Below, piece by piece: positions 47,589 through 62,770 of a stretch of 64,000 nt of DNA. This DNA is from Algihabitans albus. GTDB taxonomy: Bacteria > Pseudomonadota > Alphaproteobacteria > Kiloniellales > DSM-21159. Numbering within the stretch: the first letter of the stretch is position 1; each line of letters begins with the position of its first letter. The stretch is taken from the NCBI RefSeq assembly GCF_003572205.1, contig NZ_QXNY01000002.1, positions 434,001 to 498,000 of the forward strand, in the 5' to 3' direction. Position numbers and translations under genes: made by a program. Below the pieces are notes generated by a model that was given only the letters and a program-made list of their open reading frames with translations, had not been told where the DNA came from and searched no databases.

Positions 47589-50500
47589 TTACGCCGCTAG
47601 CGCCGCCGCCTTTCCAAGCTGCTCCAACAAACGGCGGACACCGCGCATGCGCTGGTTCGGCCCGTCCCAGTCCCGCTTGTAGACGAGCTTGTGATCGGGC
47701 CGCAGCTTCACCGTGCCGGCCTGAGCCTGAATGAACTGCACGAGGCCTTGCGGATTGGCGAAGAGATCGCCGCGGAAAGCGATCACCGCACCTTTCGGCC
47801 CGGCATCGACCTTCTCGACACCGGCATCGCGGCAAAGCCGCTTGATCGCGATGACGTCGAGCAGGTTCTGCACCTCGTCGGGCAGCGGTCCGAACCGATC
47901 CACAAGTTCGGCTGCGAAGGCGTCGATCTCGATCTTGTCGACCAGTTGCGAGAGCCGCCGATAGAGGCCCAGTCGCACATGCAGGTCGGGGACGTAGACT
48001 TCGGGGATCAGCACGGCCGTCCCGAGGTTGATCTGCGGCGCCCAGGTCTCCCCTGTCCCGCCGGCCGGGCCCTGGGCTTCGCCCCCACGCTCCCGGACCG
48101 CCGCCACGGCCTCCTCGAGCATCTGTTGGTAAAGCTCGATGCCGACTTCCCGGATGTGGCCCGATTGCTCCTCCCCCAAGAGGTTGCCGGCGCCGCGAAT
48201 GTCGAGATCGTGGCTGGCCAGCGTGAAGCCGGCGCCCAGCGTGTCGAGGGTCTGCATGACGTGCAGGCGCTTCTCGGCGGCGCTTGAGAGAATGCGTCCC
48301 GGCGGCAAGGTGAGGTAGGCGTAGCCGCGCTGCTTGCCGCGACCGATACGTCCGCGAAGCTGATAGAGCTGCGATAGACCGAACATGTCGGCCCGGTGGA
48401 TGACCATGGTGTTGGCGGTCGGAATGTCGAGACCGGATTCGACGATGTTGGTCGAAAGCAGCACGTCGAACTTGCGGTCGACGAAGTCCGTCATGGTCTC
48501 TTCCAGGCGGCTCGGCGCCATACGGCCGTGCGCCACCGCGACCTTGACCTCCGGCACCAGCTTCGTCAGCCGCTCGCGCAACTCCTCCAGATCCTCGATC
48601 CGCGGGCAGACGTAGAAGGTCTGGCCGCCGCGATGGTACTCGCGCAAGATGGCCTCGCGCACCACCACCGGGTCGTAGGGCAGCACGAAGGTCCGCACCG
48701 CCAGGCGGTCCACCGGCGGCGTGGCGATCAGACTCATCTCCTTCACGCCGGACAAGGCCAACTGCAGCGTTCGCGGGATGGGCGTCGCCGTCAGCGTCAG
48801 CACGTGCACCTCGGCGCGGAGCTGTTTCAGGCGCTCCTTCTGCTTGACGCCGAAGTGCTGTTCTTCGTCGACGATCATCAGACCGAGGTCTTTGAATTTC
48901 ACCGAGTTGGACAGCAGCGCGTGAGTGCCGACGACAATGTCGATCGTGCCGGCCTCCAGCTCCTTCTTCACCTTGGCCGTATCCTTGGCCGTCACCAGGC
49001 GACTGAGTTGCCCGACGCGCACGGGCAAGCCGGCGAAGCGGTCCTTCACGGTCGCGTAGTGTTGCCGCGCCAAGAGGGTGGTCGGCACGGCAATGGCGAC
49101 CTGGTGGCCGTTCAAGGCGGAGACGAAGGCGGCGCGCAGCGCAATCTCGGTCTTTCCGAAACCGACATCGCCGCAGACCAGACGGTCCATCGGCTTGCCG
49201 GAGTTGAGATCGGTCAGGGTCTCCTCAATCGCGCGCAACTGGTCGTCCGTTTCCGGATAGGGGAACCGCGCGGCGAACTCGTCGTAGAGGCCCTCGGGCC
49301 GCGGCACCGCCTCGGCCTGGCGGAGTTCCCGTTCGGCCGCGATCTTGATCAACTCGTTGGCGATTTCGCGGATGCGCTCCTTGACCTTGGCCTTGCGGGC
49401 CTGCCATCCGCCCTGCCCCAGCCGGTCCAGCTCGACCGAGGCCTCCTCGCCGCCGAAGCGGGACAGCACCTCGATGTTTTCCACCGGGACGTAGAGCTTG
49501 TCGCCGCCGTGGTAGATGACGCGCAGGCAATCGTGCGCGGCTCCGCCGATGTCGAGCGTTTCCAGGCTGTCGTATCGGCCGATGCCGAATTCGACATGCA
49601 CCACGTGATCGCCTTCGGCCAGAGTCGAGACTTCGGTCAGGAAGTTCTCCGGCCGCCGGCGCCGTACCTGTGCGCGGGCGATGCGCTCGCCCAGAACGTC
49701 GGTTTCGGTCAGCACCGTCAGGTCGGCGGTTCCGAAACCGCGCTCCAGGCTCAGCGCGACCACCCCCAGGGTCCCGGCCGGCAACTGCTGCGCGGCCCCC
49801 CAGCTCTCGACGGACGTCTGCGGCGTCAGGCCGTGGTCGGCCAGAACATGGGCCAGACGGTCGCGGCTGCCGCGCGAGTAGCCGACCAGCAGGACTCTGC
49901 GTCCGGCCGCTTGCTCGGCGGCGACGTAGTCCTTGACCGCGTCGTAGAGCTGAGACTCCCCGGCCAGGCGCTCCGCCGCGAAGTCGGGCCCACGCCTGCC
50001 GCCGGCATCGACGATCCCGGCCATGTCGTCGGGTCCGGCAAAGGGCGAGAGGTCCCCCGTCGCCCGTGCCTCCAGCCGCTCCTTCCATTCCTGCGCGGTG
50101 AGGTAGAGCGCCTCGGGCCGCAAGGGATTGTAGACACCGGCGGTGGCCGCTTCGGCCCGGCCCAGTGTCTGACGCGCATCGTAGAAGTCGGCGACGGTCT
50201 CCAGCCGCGTGTCCTTGATTTCCTCCGCCTGATGATCGAGCGTGATCCGCGCCGCCGGCAGATAGTCGAAGAGCGTATCGAGCCGCTCGTAGAACAGAGG
50301 CAGCCAATGCTCCATGCCGGGATGCGGCCGGGCCGCACTTACGGATTCATAGAGCGGATCGCCGCCCGTCTGCGCCCCGAAAGCCTTGCGGTAGCCGCTG
50401 CGGAACCGCTCGATACTTTCCGACTCCAGCAACACTTCACTGACCGGTTTCAGGCTTAGGCGTTCGGCCTTGCCGCTGGAGATCTGCGTCAACGGGTCGA

Positions 50501-51086
50501 AACTGCGGATCGATTCCAGCTCGTCGCCGAAAAAGTCCAGACGCAGCGGCTGCTCCGCCCCCGGCGGAAACACGTCGAGCAGGCCGCCGCGCAAGGCGTA
50601 TTCGCCCGGCTCCCCCACCGTCTCGACGCGCAGGTATCCGTTATCCGCGAAGAAGGCCGTCAGGCTTTCGACCGCGAGCCGGTCGCCCGGCTTCGCATCC
50701 AGCGAGCGTCCGGCCAGGGCCTCGCGCGGCAGGACCCGCTGCATCAGCGCGCTGACGGTCGTCACGACGAGCAGCCCGCCGGGACCCGCCTGGTCGCTGC
50801 GCAAACGGGTCAAGGTCGCCAGCCGGCGGGCCACGATATCCCGGTGCGGACTGACCCGGTCGTAGGGCAGACAGTCCCACGCCGGGAAAAGCAGGACCTC
50901 GGCCTTCGGCGCGAAAAAGGCCACCGCCTCGGCCAGACGGGTCATCCGCTGGTCGTCGCGGGCGACATGCAGGTGGGCCTGTACCGGCGCGACGGCCAGC
51001 GCCTGCGCAATCAGCAGCGCATCCAATCCCTCGGGCGCGTTGACGATCCGTCGTCGCCCGGGAGCACTCAAAACCTGGTGCAACAC
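47589..51086 (-). CDS. mfd: Transcription-repair coupling factor Mfd
   Basis: Mfd removes RNA polymerase stalled at lesions and recruits UvrA. The 1165-residue protein has the UvrB-like N-terminal damage-recognition module. The CarD-like RNA polymerase interaction domain follows (LAEGDHVVHVEFGIGRYDSLETL), then the RecG-like motor with Walker A CGDVGFGKTEIALRAAF, DEEQHFGVKQKERL and TATPIPRTLQL, then the TRCF C-terminal domain. Length is close to E. coli (1148). GTG start at 51086. Convergent with nfeD, 34 bp upstream of the sdhE stop. Confidence 0.98.
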   Translation of the reverse strand: MLHQVLSAPGRRRIVNAPEGLDALLIAQALAVAPVQAHLHVARDDQRMTRLAEAVAFFAPKAEVLLFPAWDCLPYDRVSPHRDIVARRLATLTRLRSDQAGPGGLLVVTTVSALMQRVLPREALAGRSLDAKPGDRLAVESLTAFFADNGYLRVETVGEPGEYALRGGLLDVFPPGAEQPLRLDFFGDELESIRSFDPLTQISSGKAERLSLKPVSEVLLESESIERFRSGYRKAFGAQTGGDPLYESVSAARPHPGMEHWLPLFYERLDTLFDYLPAARITLDHQAEEIKDTRLETVADFYDARQTLGRAEAATAGVYNPLRPEALYLTAQEWKERLEARATGDLSPFAGPDDMAGIVDAGGRRGPDFAAERLAGESQLYDAVKDYVAAEQAAGRRVLLVGYSRGSRDRLAHVLADHGLTPQTSVESWGAAQQLPAGTLGVVALSLERGFGTADLTVLTETDVLGERIARAQVRRRRPENFLTEVSTLAEGDHVVHVEFGIGRYDSLETLDIGGAAHDCLRVIYHGGDKLYVPVENIEVLSRFGGEEASVELDRLGQGGWQARKAKVKERIREIANELIKIAAERELRQAEAVPRPEGLYDEFAARFPYPETDDQLRAIEETLTDLNSGKPMDRLVCGDVGFGKTEIALRAAFVSALNGHQVAIAVPTTLLARQHYATVKDRFAGLPVRVGQLSRLVTAKDTAKVKKELEAGTIDIVVGTHALLSNSVKFKDLGLMIVDEEQHFGVKQKERLKQLRAEVHVLTLTATPIPRTLQLALSGVKEMSLIATPPVDRLAVRTFVLPYDPVVVREAILREYHRGGQTFYVCPRIEDLEELRERLTKLVPEVKVAVAHGRMAPSRLEETMTDFVDRKFDVLLSTNIVESGLDIPTANTMVIHRADMFGLSQLYQLRGRIGRGKQRGYAYLTLPPGRILSSAAEKRLHVMQTLDTLGAGFTLASHDLDIRGAGNLLGEEQSGHIREVGIELYQQMLEEAVAAVRERGGEAQGPAGGTGETWAPQINLGTAVLIPEVYVPDLHVRLGLYRRLSQLVDKIEIDAFAAELVDRFGPLPDEVQNLLDVIAIKRLCRDAGVEKVDAGPKGAVIAFRGDLFANPQGLVQFIQAQAGTVKLRPDHKLVYKRDWDGPNQRMRGVRRLLEQLGKAAALAA

Positions 51087-51119
51087 GTGTTTTGTACCGG
51101 AAAGCTTAGATGGTTGAGG

Positions 51120-51410
51120 TCAGCTGGTAACGGGCTTGTACTCGAAGGCGCGCATCAAACGCATCACATCGTGGTCGAGGTCGGTCGGAGGATCGCTACG
51201 CCCGATCATCCAGGCGTAAAGATCGGGATCCGACTCCAGCAGCAGCCCCTCGAACCTGTCGAGCTGCTGCGACTCGAAGCCCGCGAGATAGGCGTCGGCG
51301 AAGCTGCCGACCAGCAGATCCATCTCCCGGGTTCCCCGATGCCACGCGCGAAACCGCAAGCGTTTCCGCCGTGTTTCCAGTGATTCGCCGCCTGGCGATT
51401 CGTCCTGCAT
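51120..51410 (-). CDS. sdhE: FAD assembly factor SdhE (succinate dehydrogenase assembly)
   Basis: SdhE assists covalent flavinylation of SdhA. The 96-residue protein has the diagnostic RG-x-x-E motif in the first helix (WHRGTREMDLLVGSFA) and is otherwise all helical. It sits between mfd (same strand) and divergent recG, the usual alphaproteobacterial location. Length is standard. Confidence 0.95.
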   Translation of the reverse strand: MQDESPGGESLETRRKRLRFRAWHRGTREMDLLVGSFADAYLAGFESQQLDRFEGLLLESDPDLYAWMIGRSDPPTDLDHDVMRLMRAFEYKPVTS

Positions 51411-51524
51411 GTCGTCTCCGTTCTCCTGGCGCTAGGATATAGACCGTCGCGCGCCGCCTGTCAGCCGGGCCGGTGTCGCGGCAGCGCCCTTTCCTTCCAG
51501 GCTTTGTTCCGTCAAGAAACGCTC

Positions 51525-53606
51525 GTGCGGCCGACGATCCTCAATCCTCTCTTCGCCGAGATCACCGCCCTGCCGGGCGTCGGGCCCCGGTTTGCCAAAC
51601 TCTTCGCCAAGCTGGCGGGGGCGCGCGCCGTGGACCTCTGTTGGCATCTGCCGACGGGCTTGATCGACCGCTCCTATCAGCCGCGGCTGGCCGAGGCCGA
51701 AATCGGGCGGGTGGCCACCGTCACGGTCACCGTGATCGCCATCGAGCCGGGACGCACGACGCGGCAGCCGCTGCGGGTCCGCTGCGAGGACGCGACCTCG
51801 ACGCTCGATCTCGTCTTCTTTCACGCAAAGTCCGACTGGATCGCCAAACAGCTCCCGCTCGGCGCCACGCGGGTCGTGAGCGGCAAGGTCGAGGCCTTCG
51901 GCAGTCATCTGCAGATGGTCCATCCGGACTACATTGCTTCGCCCGAGGAAAAGGACAGCCTCGCCGGCGTCGAGCCCGTCTATCCCTTGACCGCCGGACT
52001 GACGCCGAAGACCGTGGCGAAGGCCGTGCGCGCCGCCGTGGCGCGGGCTCCGGAGCTGCCCGAGTGGCTGGACCCGGCGCTGCAACGTCAGCGCGGCTGG
52101 CCCGGCTGGCAGGCGGCCCTGCGGGCGGTTCACCACCCGGAGGGCGCGGGCGACCTCGAGCCCGCCGCGACGGCACGTCAACGCCTGGCCTACGACGAGC
52201 TGCTGGCGAACCAGTTGGCGCTCGCGATCGTGCGCCTCAACCAACGCAAGGCGCGCGGGCGCGCGCTGCGCGGCGATGGTGGTCTGACCGCCAAGGCGCT
52301 GGCCGCCCTGCCCTTCGCGTTGACGGCGGCGCAACAGGAGGCCTGGACGGAGATCGCAGCCGATCTGGCGACCGAGACCCGCATGCTCCGGCTGCTGCAA
52401 GGCGACGTCGGCAGCGGAAAGACCGTAGTCGCGCTGCTGGCTATGCTGACCGCCGTGGAGGCCGGGCATCAGGCGGCCTTGATGGCGCCGACCGAACTGT
52501 TGGCGCGCCAACACTACGAAACGATCGCGCCGCTGGCCGAGGCCGCCGGCATCGAGGTGCTGGTGCTGACCGGCCGCGACAAGGGCAAGACCCGCCAGGC
52601 GGCCTTGGCGCGGCTGGCCGACGGATCCGCCAAACTGGCGATCGGGACCCACGCGCTGTTTCAGCAGGAGGTCGCCTTTGCCGACCTGGGGCTTGCCGTG
52701 ATCGACGAACAGCACCGCTTCGGCGTCCATCAGCGCCTCTCGCTGGCGGCCAAGGGGCGGGCCGTCGACGTGCTGGTCATGACGGCGACGCCGATCCCGC
52801 GCACCCTGGTGCTGACGGCCTACGGCGACATGGAGTCCTCGCGGATCACCGGCAAGCCGCCGGGCCGCCAGCCGGTCGACACGCGTACTCTGCCGCTGGA
52901 GCGTCTGGAAGAGGTGGTGGAGGCCGTCGGCCGCAAGATCGCCGAGGGCGGCAAGGTCTACTGGGTCTGTCCTCTGGTCGAGGAGAGCGAGACCGGCGAT
53001 CTCGCCGCGGCCGAGGAACGCTACGCGCTGCTGGCCGAGCGCTTCCCCGGCAAGGCCGGCCTGCTGCACGGGCGCATGAAGGCAGCCGACAAGGATGCCG
53101 TCATGGCCGGCTTCGCCGGAGGACCGCTGCAGTTGCTGGTCGCCACCACCGTGATCGAAGTCGGAGTCAACGTGCCCAGCGCGACGGTCATGGTGGTCGA
53201 GCAGGCCGAGCGCTTCGGCCTCGCCCAACTACATCAACTGCGCGGCCGCATCGGACGCGGGTCCGAGAAATCCATCTGCCTGCTGCTCTACGCCTCGCCC
53301 CTCGGGCAGGTCGCGCGCGAACGCCTGAAGGTGCTGCGCGAGACCGACGACGGCTTCCGCATCGCCGAAACCGACCTGGAGCTGCGCGGCGCCGGCGAGC
53401 TTCTGGGAACCCGGCAGTCCGGCCTGCCTCAGTTTCGCCTCGCCGATCTGGACCGGCAAGCCGACCTGCTGGCCGTCGCCCGCGACGACGCCCGCCTGAT
53501 CCTGGAGCGCGATCCCGAGCTACAAAACCCGCGCGGCCAGGCCCTGCGGGTGCTGCTCTACCTCTTCGAACGGGACGAGGGCATCCGCTATCTGCGCTCC
53601 GGTTGA
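51525..53606 (+). CDS. recG: ATP-dependent DNA helicase RecG
   Basis: RecG remodels stalled replication forks and Holliday junctions. The 693-residue protein has the OB-fold wedge domain (about 50-160, with the GPR motif LPGVGPRFAKLFAKL before it), Walker A LLQGDVGSGKTVVALLAML, IDEQHRFGVHQRL and TATPIPRTLVLTAYGD. The TRG-motif region VFPL-like LRGRIGRGSEKS follows. GTG at 51525 gives the orthologue-like N-terminus RPTILNPLF; a TTG at 51504 is the alternative. Confidence 0.97.
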   Translation: MRPTILNPLFAEITALPGVGPRFAKLFAKLAGARAVDLCWHLPTGLIDRSYQPRLAEAEIGRVATVTVTVIAIEPGRTTRQPLRVRCEDATSTLDLVFFHAKSDWIAKQLPLGATRVVSGKVEAFGSHLQMVHPDYIASPEEKDSLAGVEPVYPLTAGLTPKTVAKAVRAAVARAPELPEWLDPALQRQRGWPGWQAALRAVHHPEGAGDLEPAATARQRLAYDELLANQLALAIVRLNQRKARGRALRGDGGLTAKALAALPFALTAAQQEAWTEIAADLATETRMLRLLQGDVGSGKTVVALLAMLTAVEAGHQAALMAPTELLARQHYETIAPLAEAAGIEVLVLTGRDKGKTRQAALARLADGSAKLAIGTHALFQQEVAFADLGLAVIDEQHRFGVHQRLSLAAKGRAVDVLVMTATPIPRTLVLTAYGDMESSRITGKPPGRQPVDTRTLPLERLEEVVEAVGRKIAEGGKVYWVCPLVEESETGDLAAAEERYALLAERFPGKAGLLHGRMKAADKDAVMAGFAGGPLQLLVATTVIEVGVNVPSATVMVVEQAERFGLAQLHQLRGRIGRGSEKSICLLLYASPLGQVARERLKVLRETDDGFRIAETDLELRGAGELLGTRQSGLPQFRLADLDRQADLLAVARDDARLILERDPELQNPRGQALRVLLYLFERDEGIRYLRSG

Positions 53607-53615
53607 CGGAAGCGC

Positions 53616-53650
53616 AGAGGGCGCGCTGTCCGAGGGCAGGATCGCCCTCT
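53616..53650. terminator. Hairpin between convergent recG and hydrolase gene
   Basis: Perfect 8-bp arms AGAGGGCG and CGCCCTCT flank a 19-nt loop in the 42-bp gap, overlapping the stop codon of the minus-strand gene. It could end transcripts from both sides, but no T run is present. Confidence 0.45.
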
Positions 53651-55295
53651 AGTCCTCGGCCAGATGCCTTTGGCGAACCGGCCCCCTGTACTTCGAAGTG
53701 AGGTCTTCCGGGACCTCGGTTCCATCCTGGAGGAACGGCAGGATGCCGCGCCTGAGCGAGCGGCCGCGCATCGCGTCGATATCGGCCTCGGAGCGCGTGA
53801 CGCGCTGCGCCATCCGCCGTCCCCAGAGCGCGAGATCGTCATAGAGCTTCACCCGCACCTCGGCGTGATCCGGACTGTCGCCGAGATCGCGGAACTCCTC
53901 CGGATCGCGTTCCAGATCGAACAGCATCGGGCGGAAACCGCCCTCGGCATGGATCAGCTTCCAGCGGCGGTCGGCAACCATGAAGAGCCGCGCGTCCCGC
54001 GCGCTGACCCCGAGCGTCTCGCGCATCGGCGTGACGGAGTAGTCGTATTCACTGATCACGAAATCGCGCCAAACCGATGGAGCTTCTCCGCGCAGGAAGG
54101 GCATCAGCGAGCGCCCCTCGATGATGTGGTCGGGGACCTCTCCGCCGGCGACCTCGACGAAAGTCGCGGCCAGGTCGATGCTCTCCACCAGCGCGTCGCA
54201 GGTCGTACCGCGGGTCGCATCCGCCTCCGGCCGGGGGTCGTAGACGATCAGGGGGATCTTCACGGAAGGATCGTGGAACAGATCCTTCTCGCCGAGCCAG
54301 TGATCGCCCAGGTAATCGCCATGATCGGAGGTCAGGACGATCATGGTGTCCCGCATCCGCCCGGCCGCCTCGAGATAGGCGAAGAGACGGCCCATTTGAT
54401 CGTCGGCCTGCTTGACGAGCCCCATGTAGGCGGGGATCACCTTTCGCCGCACCTCGTCTCTCTGGAAGGCCTGGCCGATCCGGTTGCCCATGAAGGCGGC
54501 ATAGATGGGGTGGGGCGACTCCCGTTCGATCTCGCTGCGGACGGCCGCCGGCACGTGGTTCGCGCCATAGAGCGCGTGGTAAGGCGCCGGCACGATGTAG
54601 GGCCAATGCGGTTTGATGTAGCTGAGATGGCAGCAGAAGGGCGTCGCGGCCTGTTCCAGAAACCGCAGCGCTTCGCCGGTCAGCCAGGGCGTCTCGCTGT
54701 CCTCCTCGCGGACGTTGGCCGGCTTGTCGGCGTTTTCGAAGAACCAGCCGGTCGCGATCTCCTCGCCTTCGACCCCGGCATTTGCGTAGTCGGCCCAGGG
54801 ATTCTCTCCGTCGTAGCCCCGGGCCTTGAGGTACTCGTTGTAGGGGCTGCGTTTCGCGTCGTAGAAGCCGTCCGGACCTTCCGCCCAAAGCCCGTCGTCG
54901 CGCACCCAGGCATCGAAGCCGCATTCCGCCTGACGGGCGCCGATCAGACTGTCGGGCGACAGCCCGAGCCGCTCCATCCCCTCCGCATCGGCCTTCATGT
55001 GGGTCTTGCCGACAAGCCAGCAGTCCATGCCGAGCCTGCGCAGATGATCGCCCAAGGTGACCTCTCCGACCCTGAGCGGAAAGCCGTTCCACTGCGCGCC
55101 GTGGGAGGAGGTATAGCGCCCGGTGTAGAAGCTCATGCGGGACGCGCCGCAGATCGGCGATTGGGCATAGGCGCGTGTGAAGCGAACGCCCTTGGCCGCG
55201 AGCGCGTCGATATTGGGCGTATGAAGGTGGGGATGTCCGGCGCAGCTCAGGTAGTCGAAACGAAGCTGGTCGAACATGATGAAGAGAATGTTCAT
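53649..55295 (-). CDS. Sulfatase-superfamily hydrolase, phosphonate monoester hydrolase-like
   Basis: The 548-residue enzyme belongs to the formylglycine-dependent sulfatase group. The nucleophile motif is C49-GASR-MSFYTGRYTS, whose Cys would be converted to formylglycine. Metal-site residues are in the N-terminal MFDQLR (Asp9-Gln10) and in TSDHGDYLGDHWLGEKDLF, and C-terminal GG/RDPEEF segments resemble PMH. Aspects shared with bacterial phosphonate monoester hydrolases (FDQLR, YDYSV-like turn, FDLERDPEEF) suggest action on organic sulfate or phosphate/phosphonate esters. The ATG at 55295 is chosen; one at 55313 is possible. It probably lacks a signal peptide, so it is cytosolic, acting after uptake by the adjacent TRAP system. 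Confidence 0.85.
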   Translation of the reverse strand: MNILFIMFDQLRFDYLSCAGHPHLHTPNIDALAAKGVRFTRAYAQSPICGASRMSFYTGRYTSSHGAQWNGFPLRVGEVTLGDHLRRLGMDCWLVGKTHMKADAEGMERLGLSPDSLIGARQAECGFDAWVRDDGLWAEGPDGFYDAKRSPYNEYLKARGYDGENPWADYANAGVEGEEIATGWFFENADKPANVREEDSETPWLTGEALRFLEQAATPFCCHLSYIKPHWPYIVPAPYHALYGANHVPAAVRSEIERESPHPIYAAFMGNRIGQAFQRDEVRRKVIPAYMGLVKQADDQMGRLFAYLEAAGRMRDTMIVLTSDHGDYLGDHWLGEKDLFHDPSVKIPLIVYDPRPEADATRGTTCDALVESIDLAATFVEVAGGEVPDHIIEGRSLMPFLRGEAPSVWRDFVISEYDYSVTPMRETLGVSARDARLFMVADRRWKLIHAEGGFRPMLFDLERDPEEFRDLGDSPDHAEVRVKLYDDLALWGRRMAQRVTRSEADIDAMRGRSLRRGILPFLQDGTEVPEDLTSKYRGPVRQRHLAED

Positions 55296-55369
55296 GGCAG
55301 GCGTTCGGTCCATCGCGAGGCCGGCCGGCTCCGGGGAACCGGCCGGCAGTTTCGGGGCGGGAAAGCGGT

Positions 55370-56389
55370 CTACTGCGCGGGCGCCGCACTGCCTTCCGGG
55401 ATGGTCACGCCGATCTCGCGATAGTATCGCTCGGCCCCGGGGTGCAGCCCGAGCCCGCCGTCCTGCACGGCGTAGTCGAGCGTGATGTCCTCCAGCCAGG
55501 GCGCGCTGTCCCGCATGGCGGCGGTTCCCTCCCAGAAGGCCTTGGTCACACGATAGACGGTCTCCTCATCGAGGGACGCGCGCGTCGCCACGCCGACGAT
55601 CGAGTTGATCGTGTAGACATCCTCGCTGTTGGTCACGCCCTCGCCATAGACCGCGACCGGGATCGGATCGAGCTTGCGGCCCGGGACGCGCGCGGGCGCG
55701 AGCTTCGCCTCGTCCATCGTCTCGACCTCCGCTTTGGTCGGTCCGAGGAGGGTGAGCTGCGCGGTCGCGGTCAGCTGCTCCACTTGCGGAAAGGGCGCGA
55801 TCCCGCCGTTGATGTAGACGTCGATCTGCCGGTCCTGAAACGCCTGAAAGGCGGAAGACCAGGAGCCGTTGAAGCTCTCGAAATCCTCGTCGGGCTTCAT
55901 CCCGGTCTGGGCCTCGACCCACTTCTGCGCGGTCGCCCAGGCACCGCCGCCCGGCGGGCCGAGAAAGACGGTCTTGCCGCGCAGATCCTCCAGGGAGGCG
56001 ATGCCGGAATCGGCGTAGGTCAGCACGTGGTAGGCGCCGTAGGGAAACCAGAAGACCAGGCGAAGTTCCTCGGCCAGTTCGGGGGCGCGTTCCAACTGTT
56101 GGTACATCCGCGTCCCCTCGGACAGGAAGCGGTAGATCGTGGGCGACGTCATCGCGAAATCCAGGTCGCCTTCGGCGAGACTGATCATATGACGCGTAGC
56201 CGCGCCGGTGGCATCGACGGTGATGTCGTGCTCATCCTGACCGCGGTTCACGATGGTCGCCATCGTGGACATGGTCAGATAGGCCGACGAGCCGGGCGCG
56301 ATGGTGGCCATCTTGAGATCCTCCGCCACCGCTGTCGCGGCGGTTCCCAGGATCGCGAAGGCGGTGAAGCAGGCTTTCCAGTGTCTCAT
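55370..56389 (-). CDS. TAXI-family TRAP transporter substrate-binding protein
   Basis: The 339-residue periplasmic protein has a signal peptide (CFTAFAILGTAATAVA, cleavage near residue 22). The TAXI signature is TIAPGSSAYLTMSTMATIVN at the mature N-terminus; LRGKTVFLGPPGGGAWATAQKWVEAQTG is a conserved binding-lobe segment. The ATG overlaps the permease stop by an ATGA junction, so the pair is translationally coupled. Ligand unknown. Confidence 0.92.
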   Translation of the reverse strand: MRHWKACFTAFAILGTAATAVAEDLKMATIAPGSSAYLTMSTMATIVNRGQDEHDITVDATGAATRHMISLAEGDLDFAMTSPTIYRFLSEGTRMYQQLERAPELAEELRLVFWFPYGAYHVLTYADSGIASLEDLRGKTVFLGPPGGGAWATAQKWVEAQTGMKPDEDFESFNGSWSSAFQAFQDRQIDVYINGGIAPFPQVEQLTATAQLTLLGPTKAEVETMDEAKLAPARVPGRKLDPIPVAVYGEGVTNSEDVYTINSIVGVATRASLDEETVYRVTKAFWEGTAAMRDSAPWLEDITLDYAVQDGGLGLHPGAERYYREIGVTIPEGSAAPAQ

Positions 56390-58245
56390 GTCTTTCCTCC
56401 CATTTCGATTTTCGCGGTTTTGATTTTGAAGGCGGAGCGCCGGTGAAACGCGATCAGCGCGGCTGACAGAGCGAGACCGGCGAGGCTGACCGGCAGGTAG
56501 GGAACCAGGGCCAGAAGCCCCGCCAGCAAGCGCAAGCCGGATTCGCCCCGCGAGAGACGCCGCAGGTCGAAGCGCGGCAGCGCCGTCGCAACCATCCAGG
56601 TCGAACAGCCGAAGATCGCGAAGGCCCAGGCGAGACCGAGCGGGCTGACGCCCTCGATCAAAAGGATGTCCGGATGCCAGACGAAGAGAAAGGGTATGAC
56701 GAATCCCGCGAGCGCCAGCCGAAACGCCTCGAGACCCGTCGCCATTGGCCGGGCGCCCGCGATCGGCGCGGCGGCGAAGGCGGCGAGCGCCACGGGCGGT
56801 GTCACGACGGACAGGACGGCGAAGTAAAGCATGAAGAGATGCGCGGCGATCGTCGGCAGACCCAACTGTTCCAGAGCCGGCCCCATCACGATGGCGACGA
56901 TCAGATAGGCGGGCGCCGAGGGAACCCCCATGCCCATGACCAGAGATCCGAGCATGACGAGAAGCAGCGCCAGGAAGAGAGAGGTGCCGGACACCGACAG
57001 GATGGCCTGCGCGAACTGCAGGCCGACGCCGGACATGTTGATCACGCCGATGACGAAACCGATGGCGGCGACGATGACCATCAGCGTCGCCGCCGTATGC
57101 CCGGCCGCGATCAAGGCCGAGATCCAAGCCTTCGGATGACGGAACGCGGGGAATAGGAGGAGACAAAGCAGGGTCGCCGCGATCAGCGCGGTGAAGCCCG
57201 CGTATTGCGCCGTCCGACCCTGGAGAAGAACGAAGACGATCATGCCGAGTGGCAGAAAGAAGGACAGGCTTTGGAGCCAATCGCGCGAGGTGACCGATTC
57301 GACTTCGGGCGCCGGCCGTGGCGCGAGGCCTTGCTTGCGCGCCTCGATCAAAACCATGGCGAAGAGGGAGAGGTAGTAGAACAGCGCCGGAATCAAGGCG
57401 GCAATGACGATCTGCAGGTACGGGATTCCGGTCACGTCGGCCATCAGAAAGGCCACCACGCCCATGACGGGCGGCATGATCTGACCTCCGGTGGAGGCGG
57501 CCGCCTCCACGGCCCCAGCGAAGGTCGGGCGAAAGCCCGCCCGCTTGATGATCGGAATGGTGAAGACGCCGGTGGAAACCACATTGGCGATGGGCGACCC
57601 GGAGAGCGTGCCGAAGGCGCCGGAGGCCACGATGGCCGCATGCGCGGGACCGCCGGTAACCCGGGCCGTGGCGGCCAGTGCCATCTTGAGCAGAACGCGT
57701 CCCGCTCCGGAGGTTTGCAAGACCGCCCCGAAAACGATGAATACCAGGACGACGCGTCCGACCACCTCGACGGGGCGGCCGAAAACGCCGTCTGTGGAGT
57801 ACCAGAGATTCTCGGCGACACGGCTCCAGCGCTCGTCGGCCCCGAAGGGTGCCAGGACGTAGACCGCCAAGGCGAGACAGACGAGCAGCATCGGCCAGCC
57901 GAAGCCACGGTAAGTAGCGTAGAAGATCAGCGCCAGCGCCCCCCAGGCCAGCGCGAGTTCCCCATCCGAGATGTCGATGAAGAAGGTCTCCTGCGCATGC
58001 ATGATCGAGACCCAGAGCCAGATCATACCTGCAAAGCCGACCGCGAGGCCGCCATGGAACGAGAGACGCCGGATCCCGCCGGGCTGGGACAGGAGCAGGA
58101 TCGAAAGCCCCAGGCCGACCGTCAGGCCGGAGTAGAGCGTGGTGTCGAACACGCCGAAGCCCGCGGCGTGAACCGCCAATCCCGACAGTATCAGGGAAAG
58201 GCCCGCGGTCAGCCCTGCGGACCCACGCGCGATCAGGTCCCTCAC
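56386..58245 (-). CDS. TRAP transporter fused permease (DctQM-type)
   Basis: The 619-residue inner-membrane protein fuses the small and large TRAP subunits, as usual for TAXI systems, with about 15-18 hydrophobic helices. Conserved motifs include ASGAFGTLSGSPIANVVSTGVFTIP, GGQIMPPVMGVVAFLMAD and LVMGMGVPSAPAYLIVAIVMGPALEQLG. The GTG at 58245 was chosen because the upstream reading runs into the intergenic operator region. Na+ or H+ driven uptake of an organic anion is expected. First gene of permease-TAXI-hydrolase. Confidence 0.9.
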   Translation of the reverse strand: MRDLIARGSAGLTAGLSLILSGLAVHAAGFGVFDTTLYSGLTVGLGLSILLLSQPGGIRRLSFHGGLAVGFAGMIWLWVSIMHAQETFFIDISDGELALAWGALALIFYATYRGFGWPMLLVCLALAVYVLAPFGADERWSRVAENLWYSTDGVFGRPVEVVGRVVLVFIVFGAVLQTSGAGRVLLKMALAATARVTGGPAHAAIVASGAFGTLSGSPIANVVSTGVFTIPIIKRAGFRPTFAGAVEAAASTGGQIMPPVMGVVAFLMADVTGIPYLQIVIAALIPALFYYLSLFAMVLIEARKQGLAPRPAPEVESVTSRDWLQSLSFFLPLGMIVFVLLQGRTAQYAGFTALIAATLLCLLLFPAFRHPKAWISALIAAGHTAATLMVIVAAIGFVIGVINMSGVGLQFAQAILSVSGTSLFLALLLVMLGSLVMGMGVPSAPAYLIVAIVMGPALEQLGLPTIAAHLFMLYFAVLSVVTPPVALAAFAAAPIAGARPMATGLEAFRLALAGFVIPFLFVWHPDILLIEGVSPLGLAWAFAIFGCSTWMVATALPRFDLRRLSRGESGLRLLAGLLALVPYLPVSLAGLALSAALIAFHRRSAFKIKTAKIEMGGKT

Positions 58246-58309
58246 GTCTCCACCCCATTTTGTATCCGTAGGATGCGTCGGCCTGCCCGTGCCGCAAAAC
58301 GCTATTCCA

Positions 58310-58334
58310 AAACGTGCCACTGAGTGGCACGTTT
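58310..58334. promoter_or_regulatory. Perfect 25-bp palindrome, probable IclR operator
   Basis: Arms AAACGTGCCACT and AGTGGCACGTTT are exact reverse complements around a central G. It lies six bases before the iclR ATG and 65 bp before the divergent permease start. Position between a regulator and its putative target operon makes it the likely operator for both. Confidence 0.85.
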
Positions 58335-58340
58335 CGCGTC

Positions 58341-59177
58341 ATGCTCAAAGAGAGCCGTTCGCTGGACCGAGGTATTTCCTTGATGGAGGCGCTGGCCCGG
58401 CGCGACTCCATGTCCTTGGCCGAGCTTCACAAGACGACGGGTCTCCCAAAGTCCACGATCCGCCGCCTCATGGCGACGCTCGTGGCGCGCTCCATTGCCC
58501 GGCGGTCGCTCGCGGACGGCCGCTACAGACTGAACGTGACCTTGCCCAGTATTTCGCCCGAGCCGATTCCGCGAGGGCTCAGTCTGCTCGCGGACGTCGC
58601 CCTGCCGGATACGCTGGCGCTGACCCGCGCAGTGGGCTGGCCCTCAGATCTGCATATTCTCGACGGCACGGCGATGCAGATCATCGATTCGACCCGCGTG
58701 TTCAGCCCGTTTCAATTCAATCGCGAGCAAATCGACCGGCGGGTCAACATTTTCGGTGCGGCCAGCGGAATGGCCTGCCTCTCGCTGCGAAACGAAGCCC
58801 AGGTCGCTGCCCTGCACGAAGCCACCAAAGGAGATCGGACCTGGGGTCTCGCCCGCTTCGGCATGGACCTCGACGATTACCTTCCGATTTTGGACGAGGC
58901 GCGACGGCGCGGCTTCGGCACACGGCTTCCGAGCTATCACGGGGAACGGCCGCTCGACGGATCCCTTGCGGCCATTGCGGTGACGATCGGGCCACGGGGA
59001 CTGGGTCTCGGGGCGCTCACCTTGGTCTGGCCGCGCGCCTTCAGCTCGACCGAGCTCTTCGCGTCGGAACACCTGCCGGCGCTGCGGGCCGCCGCGGAGG
59101 CGATCAATCGGGCCTTGGACACCAGCCGGCGGATCGACAGGCATTGGCTTGAAGAGCCGCGGGAGGAGGTCCGCTAG
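58341..59177 (+). CDS. IclR-family transcriptional regulator
   Basis: The 278-residue protein has the N-terminal winged HTH of IclR (SRSLDRGISLMEALARRDSMSLAELHKTTGLPKSTIRRLMATL, about residues 5-47). A C-terminal effector domain follows. The ATG at 58341 is selected since an upstream alternative (58314) falls inside the operator palindrome. No Shine-Dalgarno is evident, so translation may be leaderless or use a very short leader. It likely controls the divergent TRAP/hydrolase operon and itself. Confidence 0.93.
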   Translation: MLKESRSLDRGISLMEALARRDSMSLAELHKTTGLPKSTIRRLMATLVARSIARRSLADGRYRLNVTLPSISPEPIPRGLSLLADVALPDTLALTRAVGWPSDLHILDGTAMQIIDSTRVFSPFQFNREQIDRRVNIFGAASGMACLSLRNEAQVAALHEATKGDRTWGLARFGMDLDDYLPILDEARRRGFGTRLPSYHGERPLDGSLAAIAVTIGPRGLGLGALTLVWPRAFSSTELFASEHLPALRAAAEAINRALDTSRRIDRHWLEEPREEVR

Positions 59178-59297
59178 TCGGGTTCGGGCGACTCCCAGTC
59201 GGCGCCCTCTTCGCCGTCTTGCGCGCGCCAAGTCCGGGCAGGTGAGGTATGATTTCGTTCATGACAGGGGTCTTGATAACCGGGCGCGGACAAGACC

Positions 59298-59942
59298 ATG
59301 ACGAGCGATCGCTTCTATACTCCCGAGATAGTGTCCCCCTACCCCAAGACCTTCGAGTTGATCGAGAATTTCGAATACAGCTCTCACCTGCGGATCGGCC
59401 GCAAAAACAAGAAAATCGTCCGATACCGGGAGTCCGAGGTCAGCTATGTGGTTCTCCGCGATTACAGCGTGACCTTCACGGTCGACGGCCGAAGACAGCG
59501 ACTGACCGTGCCGGCAGGAATGATGACCGACCTGGCCTCGGTCCCCGCCTTCGCGCGCCCCGCCATCGGCCGCGTCGGACCGCATCTGGAAGCCTCGATC
59601 GTTCACGACTTCCTCTTCGTGGCTTGGCAACTGCTTCCAACCGGGGTCGCCCGGCCGAGCGACTGGCGCTTCGCCAACGAGGTGATGTATGCGGCGCTCC
59701 GGCAAACGGCGATGGCCGCCTGGAAGCAGTGGGCGGTCCGCCGCGCGCTCAACGGCTTTTCCTGGCGCGTCTTCCGCGAAGCCGAGCCCGACCGGGAGAG
59801 GCTGTTTCTCGATCCAGAGCGGGACTGTCTCTTCAGGCAGATCAACCGGACGGTCGCCGACGACGACGCTACCGGCCCGCCCAGAAGCCTACTGACCGCG
59901 GGGCTCGTGCCGCGGCCGGCTTTGTCGTCAGCGGTTTCCTGA
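59298..59942 (+). CDS. DUF1353 protein
   Basis: The 214-residue protein carries a DUF1353 domain with the pattern LTVPAGMMTDLASVPAFARPAIGRVGPHLEASIVHDFLF (about residues 70-110). DUF1353 also occurs in phage genomes but is common in bacterial chromosomes. The role is unknown. The gene overlaps the 3' end of the convergent DUF502 gene by 15 bp. The GTG/ATG region has no strong ribosome-binding site. Confidence 0.8.
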   Translation: MTSDRFYTPEIVSPYPKTFELIENFEYSSHLRIGRKNKKIVRYRESEVSYVVLRDYSVTFTVDGRRQRLTVPAGMMTDLASVPAFARPAIGRVGPHLEASIVHDFLFVAWQLLPTGVARPSDWRFANEVMYAALRQTAMAAWKQWAVRRALNGFSWRVFREAEPDRERLFLDPERDCLFRQINRTVADDDATGPPRSLLTAGLVPRPALSSAVS

Positions 59943-61370
59943 CACCGTCTCCAACGGATCGGACAGATCGTCGCCCAGCATCTTACCCTTCTCGCCGTTG
60001 GTGCGATCCGGCGGCGTGACGATGCCGGCCGATACCACCATCTTCAGCCCCTCCTCCACGCTCATGACCAGATCGGTAATCTCGTCGCGCGGCAGGAACA
60101 GCAGGAAGCCGGAGGTCGGATTGGGCGTGGTCGGCAGGAAAACATTGACCACTTCCTCGTCGGTGATTTCCTGGATGTGGCCTTCGGTCTTGCCCGTGAT
60201 GAAGCCGATCGCCCAGCTTCCGGGGCGCGGATACTGGATCAGCACGCAGTCGCGGAAGGCGTCGGAGCGCGCCGCCAGCACCGTCTCGAAGATCTGTTTG
60301 ACCGCGCTGTAGAGGCTGCGCACGACCGGGACCCGGCCCAAGATCCACTCGCTGGTGCGCATGAGCCAGCGGCCGACGATCCCGGCGGCGAACATGCCGA
60401 TCACCGTCAGACCGACGAAGACGATCAGCAACCCAAGTCCGGGCAGGCCGAAAGGCAACACGTCGTCCGGCCGCCATTGAGCCGGCAGCCACGGCGTGAC
60501 GCGCGCATCCACGAAGGCGATGAACTGCCACGCCAACCAGAAGGTGATGGCCGCCGGAGCCGTGACCAGAATGCCGGCCAGCAGGTAGTTGCGCAGGCGC
60601 TGCGGCAGGCCGGGACGGATCGACTTCGCTTCGGCTTGCTCGTCCAGCAGGCGTTGAATCGCATCGTTCTGACTTGGCCGCGCGTCGGCCGGCGGCACGA
60701 CGATTCCGCCGGAGACGACCAGCTTCAGCCCCTGCTCCACCGTCATGTCGAGGATATTGACCTCGTCGCTCGGCAGAAACAGCAGGAAGCCGGTCGTCGG
60801 GTTGGGCGTGGCGGGAACGAAGACGCTGACCAGGGTCTCGTCGGTCAGGCGTTGCACCTCTCCCTTCGTGACGCCAGTGACGAAGCCGATGGCCCAGCAG
60901 CCTTCCTGCGGATACTGCACCAGCGCGACCTCGCGGAAGGCCTGGCTGCGCTGCGCCAGCACCGTCTCGAAGATCTGCTTGACCGCCCCGTATATAGAGC
61001 GGACCACCGGCACCTGGTCGAGCAGCCGTTCGAACTGACGCATGACCATGCGTCCGGCAATCCCGGTAAAGAGCATCCCGACCAGAACCAGAAAGATCAG
61101 AACGACGATCAGCCCCAAGCCGGGCAGTCCGAAGGGCAGATAGGTCTCCGGGTTCCAGCGGGCCGGAACCAGCGGTGTCACGCGCGCATCGACGAAGGAG
61201 ACCACCCCCCAGGTGAGCCAGATCGTGATCCCCAGCGGTGCGGCGATCAGCACGCCGGCGAAGAAGTAGTTGCGCAGACGAACAGCCAGGCCGGGACGCG
61301 CGGCAGGCCGGGGCCGTGGCGGACGCCGACCGGAGCTGTCGGGCTTTGGCGATTTACGGAAAGCGGTCAT
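59928..61370 (-). CDS. Tandem DUF502 membrane protein (two in-frame copies)
   Basis: The 480-residue protein contains two complete DUF502 units. Copy 1 is about residues 30-230 (RLRNYFFAGVLIAAPLGITIWL ...), and copy 2 about 257-455 (RLRNYLLAGILVTAPAAITFWLAW ...). Each has two membrane helices near its start and the shared blocks VDARVTP, LPFGLPGLGL, VPVVRS, AVKQIFETVLA, QYP and TPNPT-GFLLFLP. By eye about 123 of 198 aligned positions are identical with no gap. DUF502 proteins normally have one unit of about 200-240 residues. The ATG at 61370 is the natural start. Function of DUF502 is unknown. Confidence 0.9.
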   Translation of the reverse strand: MTAFRKSPKPDSSGRRPPRPRPAARPGLAVRLRNYFFAGVLIAAPLGITIWLTWGVVSFVDARVTPLVPARWNPETYLPFGLPGLGLIVVLIFLVLVGMLFTGIAGRMVMRQFERLLDQVPVVRSIYGAVKQIFETVLAQRSQAFREVALVQYPQEGCWAIGFVTGVTKGEVQRLTDETLVSVFVPATPNPTTGFLLFLPSDEVNILDMTVEQGLKLVVSGGIVVPPADARPSQNDAIQRLLDEQAEAKSIRPGLPQRLRNYLLAGILVTAPAAITFWLAWQFIAFVDARVTPWLPAQWRPDDVLPFGLPGLGLLIVFVGLTVIGMFAAGIVGRWLMRTSEWILGRVPVVRSLYSAVKQIFETVLAARSDAFRDCVLIQYPRPGSWAIGFITGKTEGHIQEITDEEVVNVFLPTTPNPTSGFLLFLPRDEITDLVMSVEEGLKMVVSAGIVTPPDRTNGEKGKMLGDDLSDPLETVSGNR

Positions 61371-61419: not shown

Positions 61420-62325
61420 CTAGAAGAAGGCCTCGAGCGCAGCCAGCGTTTCCGCCGGCGCTTCCTCTGGCACGAAGTGGCCGCAGGGCAACGCCTGCCC
61501 TTCCACCTTCTCCGCCTTGGCGCGCCAGACGGCCAGCACGTCGTAAGTGCGCTGAACGACCCCTTTTTCGCCCCAAAGCACCAGCAACGGGCAGTCGATC
61601 CGCTCACCGGCGTCGGCCTCGTCATGCTCCAGATCGATGGTGGCGGACGCCCGGTAGTCCTCGCAGGTGGCGTGGATGCCAGCCGGATCGAAGCAGCGCT
61701 CGTATTCCGCCAAGGCCTCGGATGCGAAGACCTTCAGGCCGCTCTTCCCCCAGGCGCCCAGGCAGTGACGCAGCCAGGCCGATGGATCGGCGGCGATCAT
61801 GCGCTCCGGCAGGTCATAGGGCTGGATCAGATAAAACCAATGGAAGTAGGCGGCCGCGAAGGCCATGTCTGTTTGACGGTACATGGTGAGCGTCGGCGCG
61901 ATATCGATCACGCAGGCCCGCCGCACACGCTCCGGATGATCCAGGCAGAGCCGGTGGGTGACACGCGCACCGCGGTCGTGACCGACGAGGCCGAATCGCC
62001 GAAAACCCAGGTCGTCCATTACCTGAACGACGTCTGCCGCCATGGCCCGCTTGGAATAGAGCGCGTGGTTGCCGCCGCCGGGCGGCTTGGCACTGTCGCC
62101 GTAGCCGCGCAGATCCGGGCAGATCACGGTATGGCGCTCGGCCAACTTCGGCGCCAAGTCGTGCCACATCGCATGGGTTTGGGGATAACCGTGCAGAAGC
62201 ACGAGGGGGTCGCCGCTGCCGCCGATGCGCAGATTGATCTCAGCATCGCGTGTCGCCACGCGGCGCTGTTCGAAGCCTTCGAAGAAGCCTGCTGACACCC
62301 CGACCTTCCCCCGACTGAAACCCAT
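61420..62325 (-). CDS. Fluoroacetate/haloacetate dehalogenase-family alpha/beta hydrolase
   Basis: The 301-residue protein matches the FAcD family. The nucleophile is Asp117 in GHDRGARV, followed by Arg118 and Arg121 at the spacing that holds the substrate carboxylate. His162-Trp163 in YFHWFYLIQP correspond to the halide-binding pair, Tyr224 in CEDYRAS is a candidate for the third fluoride ligand, Asp141 is the acid and His283 in CGHFVPEE the base. HGYPQT forms the oxyanion region. It may defluorinate or dechlorinate short halo-acids, or act as an epoxide hydrolase. Physiological substrate unproven. Confidence 0.85.
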   Translation of the reverse strand: MGFSRGKVGVSAGFFEGFEQRRVATRDAEINLRIGGSGDPLVLLHGYPQTHAMWHDLAPKLAERHTVICPDLRGYGDSAKPPGGGNHALYSKRAMAADVVQVMDDLGFRRFGLVGHDRGARVTHRLCLDHPERVRRACVIDIAPTLTMYRQTDMAFAAAYFHWFYLIQPYDLPERMIAADPSAWLRHCLGAWGKSGLKVFASEALAEYERCFDPAGIHATCEDYRASATIDLEHDEADAGERIDCPLLVLWGEKGVVQRTYDVLAVWRAKAEKVEGQALPCGHFVPEEAPAETLAALEAFF

Positions 62326-62534: not shown

Positions 62535-62621
62535 TGGTGCGGCTGAGTGGACTCGAACCACCACGGCCTCGCGGCCACAGATACCTGAAACCTGCGCGTC
62601 TACCAATTCCGCCACAGCCGC
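62535..62621 (-). tRNA. tRNA-Leu(CAG)
   Basis: This class II tRNA of 87 nt has acceptor GCGGCTG/CAGCCGC, anticodon stem CAGGT/ATCTG with loop TTCAGGT (anticodon CAG), a long variable arm (GTGGCCGCGAGGCCGTG), A73 and encoded CCA. It lies 62 bases after tRNA-Leu(GAG) on the same strand. Confidence 0.95.
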
Positions 62622-62683
62622 ATCACGTCGCGTCGGCAGCCCCCGTTTGGAGCCCGAAAGCAAGACCCGTTCCGACAAGGCGG

Positions 62684-62770
62684 TGGTGCGGCTGAGAGGA
62701 CTTGAACCTCCACGGGGTTTCCCCCACAGCGCCCTCAACGCTGCGCGTCTACCGATTCCGCCACAGCCGC
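62684..62770 (-). tRNA. tRNA-Leu(GAG)
   Basis: Class II tRNA of 87 nt with the same acceptor stem as its neighbour, anticodon stem CAGCG/CGCTG with loop TTGAGGG (anticodon GAG), variable arm GTGGGGGAAACCCCGTG, A73 and encoded CCA. Upstream on the minus strand TTGTGT-N17-TAGATA (about 62850-62895) is a weak promoter candidate. Confidence 0.95.

Follow-up and report, generated by a model that had tools for sequence, protein, structure and literature searches.

DUF502 is a protein family that is widespread in bacteria, present in haloarchaea and found also in plants. The plant membrane protein COV1 (CONTINUOUS VASCULAR RING) is one of its members. According to PMC7752856, which cites Shirakawa et al. 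2014, COV1 resides at the TGN and is needed for the sorting of vacuolar proteins; this is the cell biology of a eukaryote and is not transferable to a bacterium. A preliminary description of the locus treated here had called the function of DUF502 unknown, which is almost correct: our literature search found no study of a bacterial DUF502 member, but functional data do exist for COV1.

The closest system is the single-unit DUF502 protein encoded beside recG, sdhE and mfd in other Alphaproteobacteria. It belongs to the same family, shares the neighbourhood and the layout of two helices followed by a beta domain, and is about 50% identical to each half of the fused protein described below; it differs in consisting of one unit (mostly in frames of 210-330 codons) with no linker, and in carrying both residue sets, E and R/T/S, of which each fused half retains one. 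For the fusion itself a parallel exists in the SemiSWEET and SWEET sugar transporters (see PMC5742349), where a small membrane unit that prokaryotes have singly is found in other organisms as a tandem fusion. The step from SemiSWEET to SWEET resembles the present case by analogy, in evolutionary route only.

Two DUF502 units in one reading frame

The window, the whole 64,000-nucleotide stretch of Algihabitans albus DNA that was analysed, contains a gene composed of two DUF502 units (Table 1). A profile search of the genome detected two DUF502 domains, with E values of 9.7e-36 and 3.6e-35, in a single stop-free frame, and hmmscan of the 480-residue protein returned two DUF502 (PF04367) stretches scoring 236 bits, where the cut-off is 23.8, bearing out the earlier claim of two complete units in a single 480-codon frame. 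Scored alone, the N-unit reaches 120.6 bits and the C-unit 122.5 bits against the same curated cut-off. According to a whole-genome search, this is the only DUF502 gene of the host. A longer listed frame of 565 residues opens at 61625; since it begins within the neighbouring alpha/beta-hydrolase gene, position 61370 is the likely start of the DUF502 gene.

An ungapped scan over all offsets gave a single clear peak at 227 residues, with 131 matches as against 51 for the runner-up. From residue 28 at this offset, 122 of 198 positions are identical without gaps, one fewer than the 123 of 198 (about 62%) counted previously. Identity between the units is 82% at second codon positions and 60% at third positions, a pattern that, as read from the alignment, is one of coding-level divergence. 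The linker joining the units, DARPSQNDAIQRLLDEQAEAKSIR, is 24 residues long.

Table 1. Positions in the window of the fused gene, its parts and its neighbours.
Feature	Position	Strand	Remarks
Fused double-DUF502 gene	59928..61370	minus	480 aa; ATG at 61370, stop ends 59928
N-terminal DUF502 unit	60687..61295	minus	protein 26-228; PF04367 core 60792-61109
Membrane segment 1 (N-unit)	61200..61256	minus	residues 39-57; hydropathy
Membrane segment 2 (N-unit)	61056..61112	minus	residues 87-105; hydropathy
N-unit motif PATPNPTTGF	60786..60815	minus	residues 186-195; family form PTTPNPTSGF
Linker	60615..60686	minus	24 aa; across the order 20-57 aa and unconserved
C-terminal DUF502 unit	60006..60614	minus	protein 253-455; PF04367 core 60111-60428
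Membrane segment 3 (C-unit)	60528..60584	minus	residues 263-281; hydropathy
Membrane segment 4 (C-unit)	60375..60431	minus	residues 314-332; hydropathy
C-unit motif PTTPNPTSGF	60105..60134	minus	residues 413-422; ancestral form
Alpha/beta-hydrolase gene	61420..62325	minus	directly upstream of DUF502; 49 bp gap
mfd, sdhE, recG	49300..53606		mfd (-), sdhE (-, 51120-51410), recG (+, 51504-53606); conserved alphaproteobacterial DUF502 neighbours

Around the gene, an alpha/beta-hydrolase cluster occupies the same place in 9 of the 20 loci of the host order that were examined. Positions 53649-59942, between DUF502 and recG, hold a sulfatase, a TAXI-type TRAP transporter (DctM, NMT1_3), an IclR-type regulator and DUF1353, and look like an inserted catabolic cassette; in most relatives DUF502 and recG are direct neighbours. 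The DUF1353 frame (59298-59942, plus strand) converges on the DUF502 gene, with a 15 bp overlap at the stops (59928-59942). Two nearby tRNA-Leu genes with CAG and GAG anticodons lie at 62535-62770 on the minus strand, and the long ORFs listed over them are probably spurious. Near other alphaproteobacterial DUF502 genes, a type III polyketide synthase and isoprenylcysteine methyltransferase pair is a frequent companion (loci L146, L154, L164, L168 and L171).

Distribution and origin of the fused gene

DUF502 is present in 60 of the 61 genomes and 27 of the 28 genera of the host order, among whose named members are Pelagibius, Denitrobaculum and Rhodovibrionaceae and Kiloniellaceae bacteria. Both units lie in one frame in 58 of these 60 genomes, with no loss of either half among them; in each of the remaining two, the contig ends within the gene and a single half is seen (the C-half in G041, the N-half in G345). 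Genome G018 of the same order, estimated to be 100% complete, gave no DUF502 match, an apparent loss. A second complete and diverged fused gene, with both half-specific motifs kept, occurs in G042 (L227) and G038 (L228), indicating that the fused gene can be duplicated whole.

Our survey took in Pseudomonadota genomes and plasmid records. Outside the order, the matches listed comprise single-unit frames from 290 and 386 class genomes and 397 phylum genomes, the class and phylum samples overlapping, and DUF502 on plasmids (including records from Rhizobiales, Neisseria and haloarchaea) is likewise single-unit. Where a genome has two DUF502 genes, the copies are on different contigs or far apart. 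The exception is an alphaproteobacterial family, f229, in which two genomes (G726 and G753) have a two-unit gene whose N-half motif carries the same Ala as the N-halves of the host order and which, in G726, sits beside recG and mfd. The earlier statement that DUF502 proteins are typically single-domain thus holds in the sampled Pseudomonadota genomes save this family. The f229 fused genes (L219 in G753, L220 in G726) are fast-evolving, and the genomes are about 2 Mb in size. A degenerate DNA search for PATPNPTTGF, which by design misses fused genomes with variant motifs, matched 5 of 366 class genomes, all carrying the fused gene.

Two outcomes named beforehand as fatal to the idea of a genuine fusion do not occur. 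A sequencing or assembly error hiding a stop codon is ruled out by the fused frame found throughout the order, and separate adjacent genes with a lost stop are ruled out by the distance between copies in two-copy genomes.

A tree built from 125 units has a branch that sets all the N-halves to one side (SH-aLRT 93) and a group made up of the C-halves and one long-branch single from Geminicoccus (88); the remaining singles are separated from the fused halves (97). A second, careful tree that included f229 again separated the singles (100/99) and joined the f229 halves to the matching N and C clades; in this tree the C-halves did not form one resolved clade against the singles, and an AU test did not reject an independent fusion in f229 (p-AU 0.286). 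Recent duplication or gene conversion is ruled out, each half grouping with its counterpart from other species. The gene order DUF502, recG, sdhE, mfd is common to fused and single lineages, indicating that a single gene was duplicated in place. These comparisons show one in-frame tandem duplication before the order radiated and inheritance of the two-unit gene since, in keeping with the old, retained duplication proposed at the outset.

Divergence between the halves

Both halves remain constrained. The dN/dS values (NG86) are 0.10-0.14 for N-halves and 0.14-0.28 for C-halves, the most distant comparison having a high dS, and column entropy is near-equal in the two. Particular residues, given here by their N-unit/C-unit positions, nonetheless distinguish the halves. 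One set is retained on the C-side: Thr at 187/414 is found in 42 of 42 C-halves and 40 of 41 singles, with Ala in all 42 N-halves; Ser at 193/420 in 42 of 42 C-halves and 41 of 41 singles, with Thr in 41 of 42 N-halves; and Arg at 155/382 in 42 of 42 C-halves, 40 of 41 singles and 12 of 42 N-halves. A second set is retained on the N-side. Glu at 171/398 occurs in 42 of 42 N-halves, 37 of 41 singles and none of 42 C-halves; G170 is invariant in the 42 N-halves, the equivalent G397 being lost from C-halves; and Glu at 152/379 is present in 41 of 42 N-halves (the sole exception being the window's own protein, with Q152) and in 14 of 42 C-halves. In terms of motifs, the glutamate of the conserved TGxTxGEV loop is kept in N-halves and lost in C-halves. 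The beta part holds 17 of the 20 columns that best separate N from C (hypergeometric p 5e-5). Half-specific losses number 3-4 per half among 59 conserved columns, and 1-3 columns, depending on threshold, are lost from both; with so few one-sided losses, and shared ones beside them, the complementarity is a pattern rather than a proven statistic.

At the level of sequence, these data show purifying selection on each half together with divergence that is fixed and specific to the half, the specialisation running in opposite directions and appearing mainly in the cytoplasmic beta domain rather than in the membrane part. The preliminary description had supposed that both halves are likely needed. 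The constraint on each agrees with this, but the halves are not two equal copies, their residue losses differing, so that the need for both is probably a division of labour.

Two other accounts of the divergence have to be weighed. Under the first, the units were tied together by chance and still join larger homo-oligomers, the differences between halves are drift, and the fusion persists as it is hard to reverse. An unconserved linker of 20-57 residues across the order would suit such a neutral history, as would a mean half-versus-half identity (56%) little above that to singles (50%) and the dispensability of the gene in the genome without DUF502. We nevertheless consider this account unlikely, given that the N-specific residues are fixed (42/42 and 41/42) inside the most invariant motif of the family, that neither half has been lost in 58 genomes and that half-specific change is concentrated in one domain.

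The second account, neofunctionalisation, we regard as less probable again. Here the C-half would keep the ancestral activity and the N-half, with PATPNPTTGF, would now be regulatory or partner-binding. The ancestral PTTPNPTSGF is indeed intact in 44 of 46 C-halves, one of the other two being cut short, and the derived motif is common to N-halves, which also evolve slightly more slowly than C-halves within genus, as expected under a new constraint. However, the C-halves have themselves lost E398, G397 and E379, kept by singles and N-halves, and the two halves are equally close to singles (mean identities of 0.506 and 0.504).

Topology, fold and a putative site between units

Hydropathy and structural models give each unit two membrane segments, then further helices and then a beta domain, the helices being present in the predicted models of both the single unit and the fusion. 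The N-terminal tail carries a charge of +9, and the loops on the outer side have almost no net charge, from which the positive-inside rule would place the N- and C-termini of both units in the cytoplasm. In the AlphaFold2 model of the fusion (pTM 0.57; 0.40 for the single unit), the soluble beta domains reach pLDDT values of about 85-95 and the membrane helices mostly 50-75, so that the model supports a soluble beta domain following the membrane helices but no particular packing of the units.

Foldseek returned weak SH3-like barrel matches for this domain (best E 0.029). A second-look structural comparison, covering only families already found by Foldseek, gave Tudor- and ribosomal-protein-type barrels as the top matches; the highest Z score, 7.2 (76 residues, 3.2 A), falls inside the background range that the tool states. 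Several of its rows span residues of both halves in the fused model, which could reflect shared or swapped strands or merely neighbouring barrels. A sequence search of solved structures found no relative.

It is highly improbable that DUF502 is an MscS-like channel subunit, consisting of a membrane hairpin and a beta domain of SH3-like type, and that the fusion forms a ring in which N- and C-units alternate. Foldseek did match MscS-type channels weakly across the greater part of the unit (3udc, with an E of 0.053; 3t9n, 9go3 and 2vv5), but every such match has a TM-score below 0.2, the second-look Z scores lie within background, and sequence profiles do not support MscS homology, a search with PF00924 having given no match even at an E limit of 10 and hhalign a probability of 1.2% over 26 columns against 30 MscS sequences from related genomes.

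In the reading that we prefer, and to which we give even chances, the fused protein is a pseudo-dimer, or half of a ring, whose two units are parallel and covalently joined and which has kept one of two inter-unit sites that were formerly equivalent. Each unit would be a two-helix membrane hairpin; with the N-terminus, linker and beta domain all in the cytoplasm, the two units would insert in parallel, much like the partners in a homodimer or adjacent subunits in a ring. All junctions of an ancestral homo-oligomer would have had an identical composite site, to which one unit contributed its TGxTxGEV loop and the next unit its Arg/PTTPNPTSGF loop. Once the units were fused, it would have been enough to preserve one of the two kinds of junction: the acidic loop is retained and the Arg/Thr/Ser set lost in N-halves, with the opposite in C-halves. 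The protein would then act as a covalently linked pseudo-heterodimer, each pair having a single working site. This pattern of losses also fits a relaxation of two sites inside each unit, independently of one another.

Extended to the family as a whole, the pseudo-dimer reading would have the reciprocal losses mark a composite site at the DUF502 subunit junction and the fusion represent the minimal functional unit of all members, COV1 included, a possible but doubtful generalisation. The fusion and its divided residues suggest that an ordinary single DUF502 protein works as a pair or a ring. Kept across an order, the fusion offers structural work a ready-made construct of fixed stoichiometry, and the divided residues (155/382, 171/398, 187/414 and 193/420) provide a short, testable list of functional positions for the whole family. 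If the composite-site reading is true, the minimal unit of DUF502 would be a pair with one active junction.
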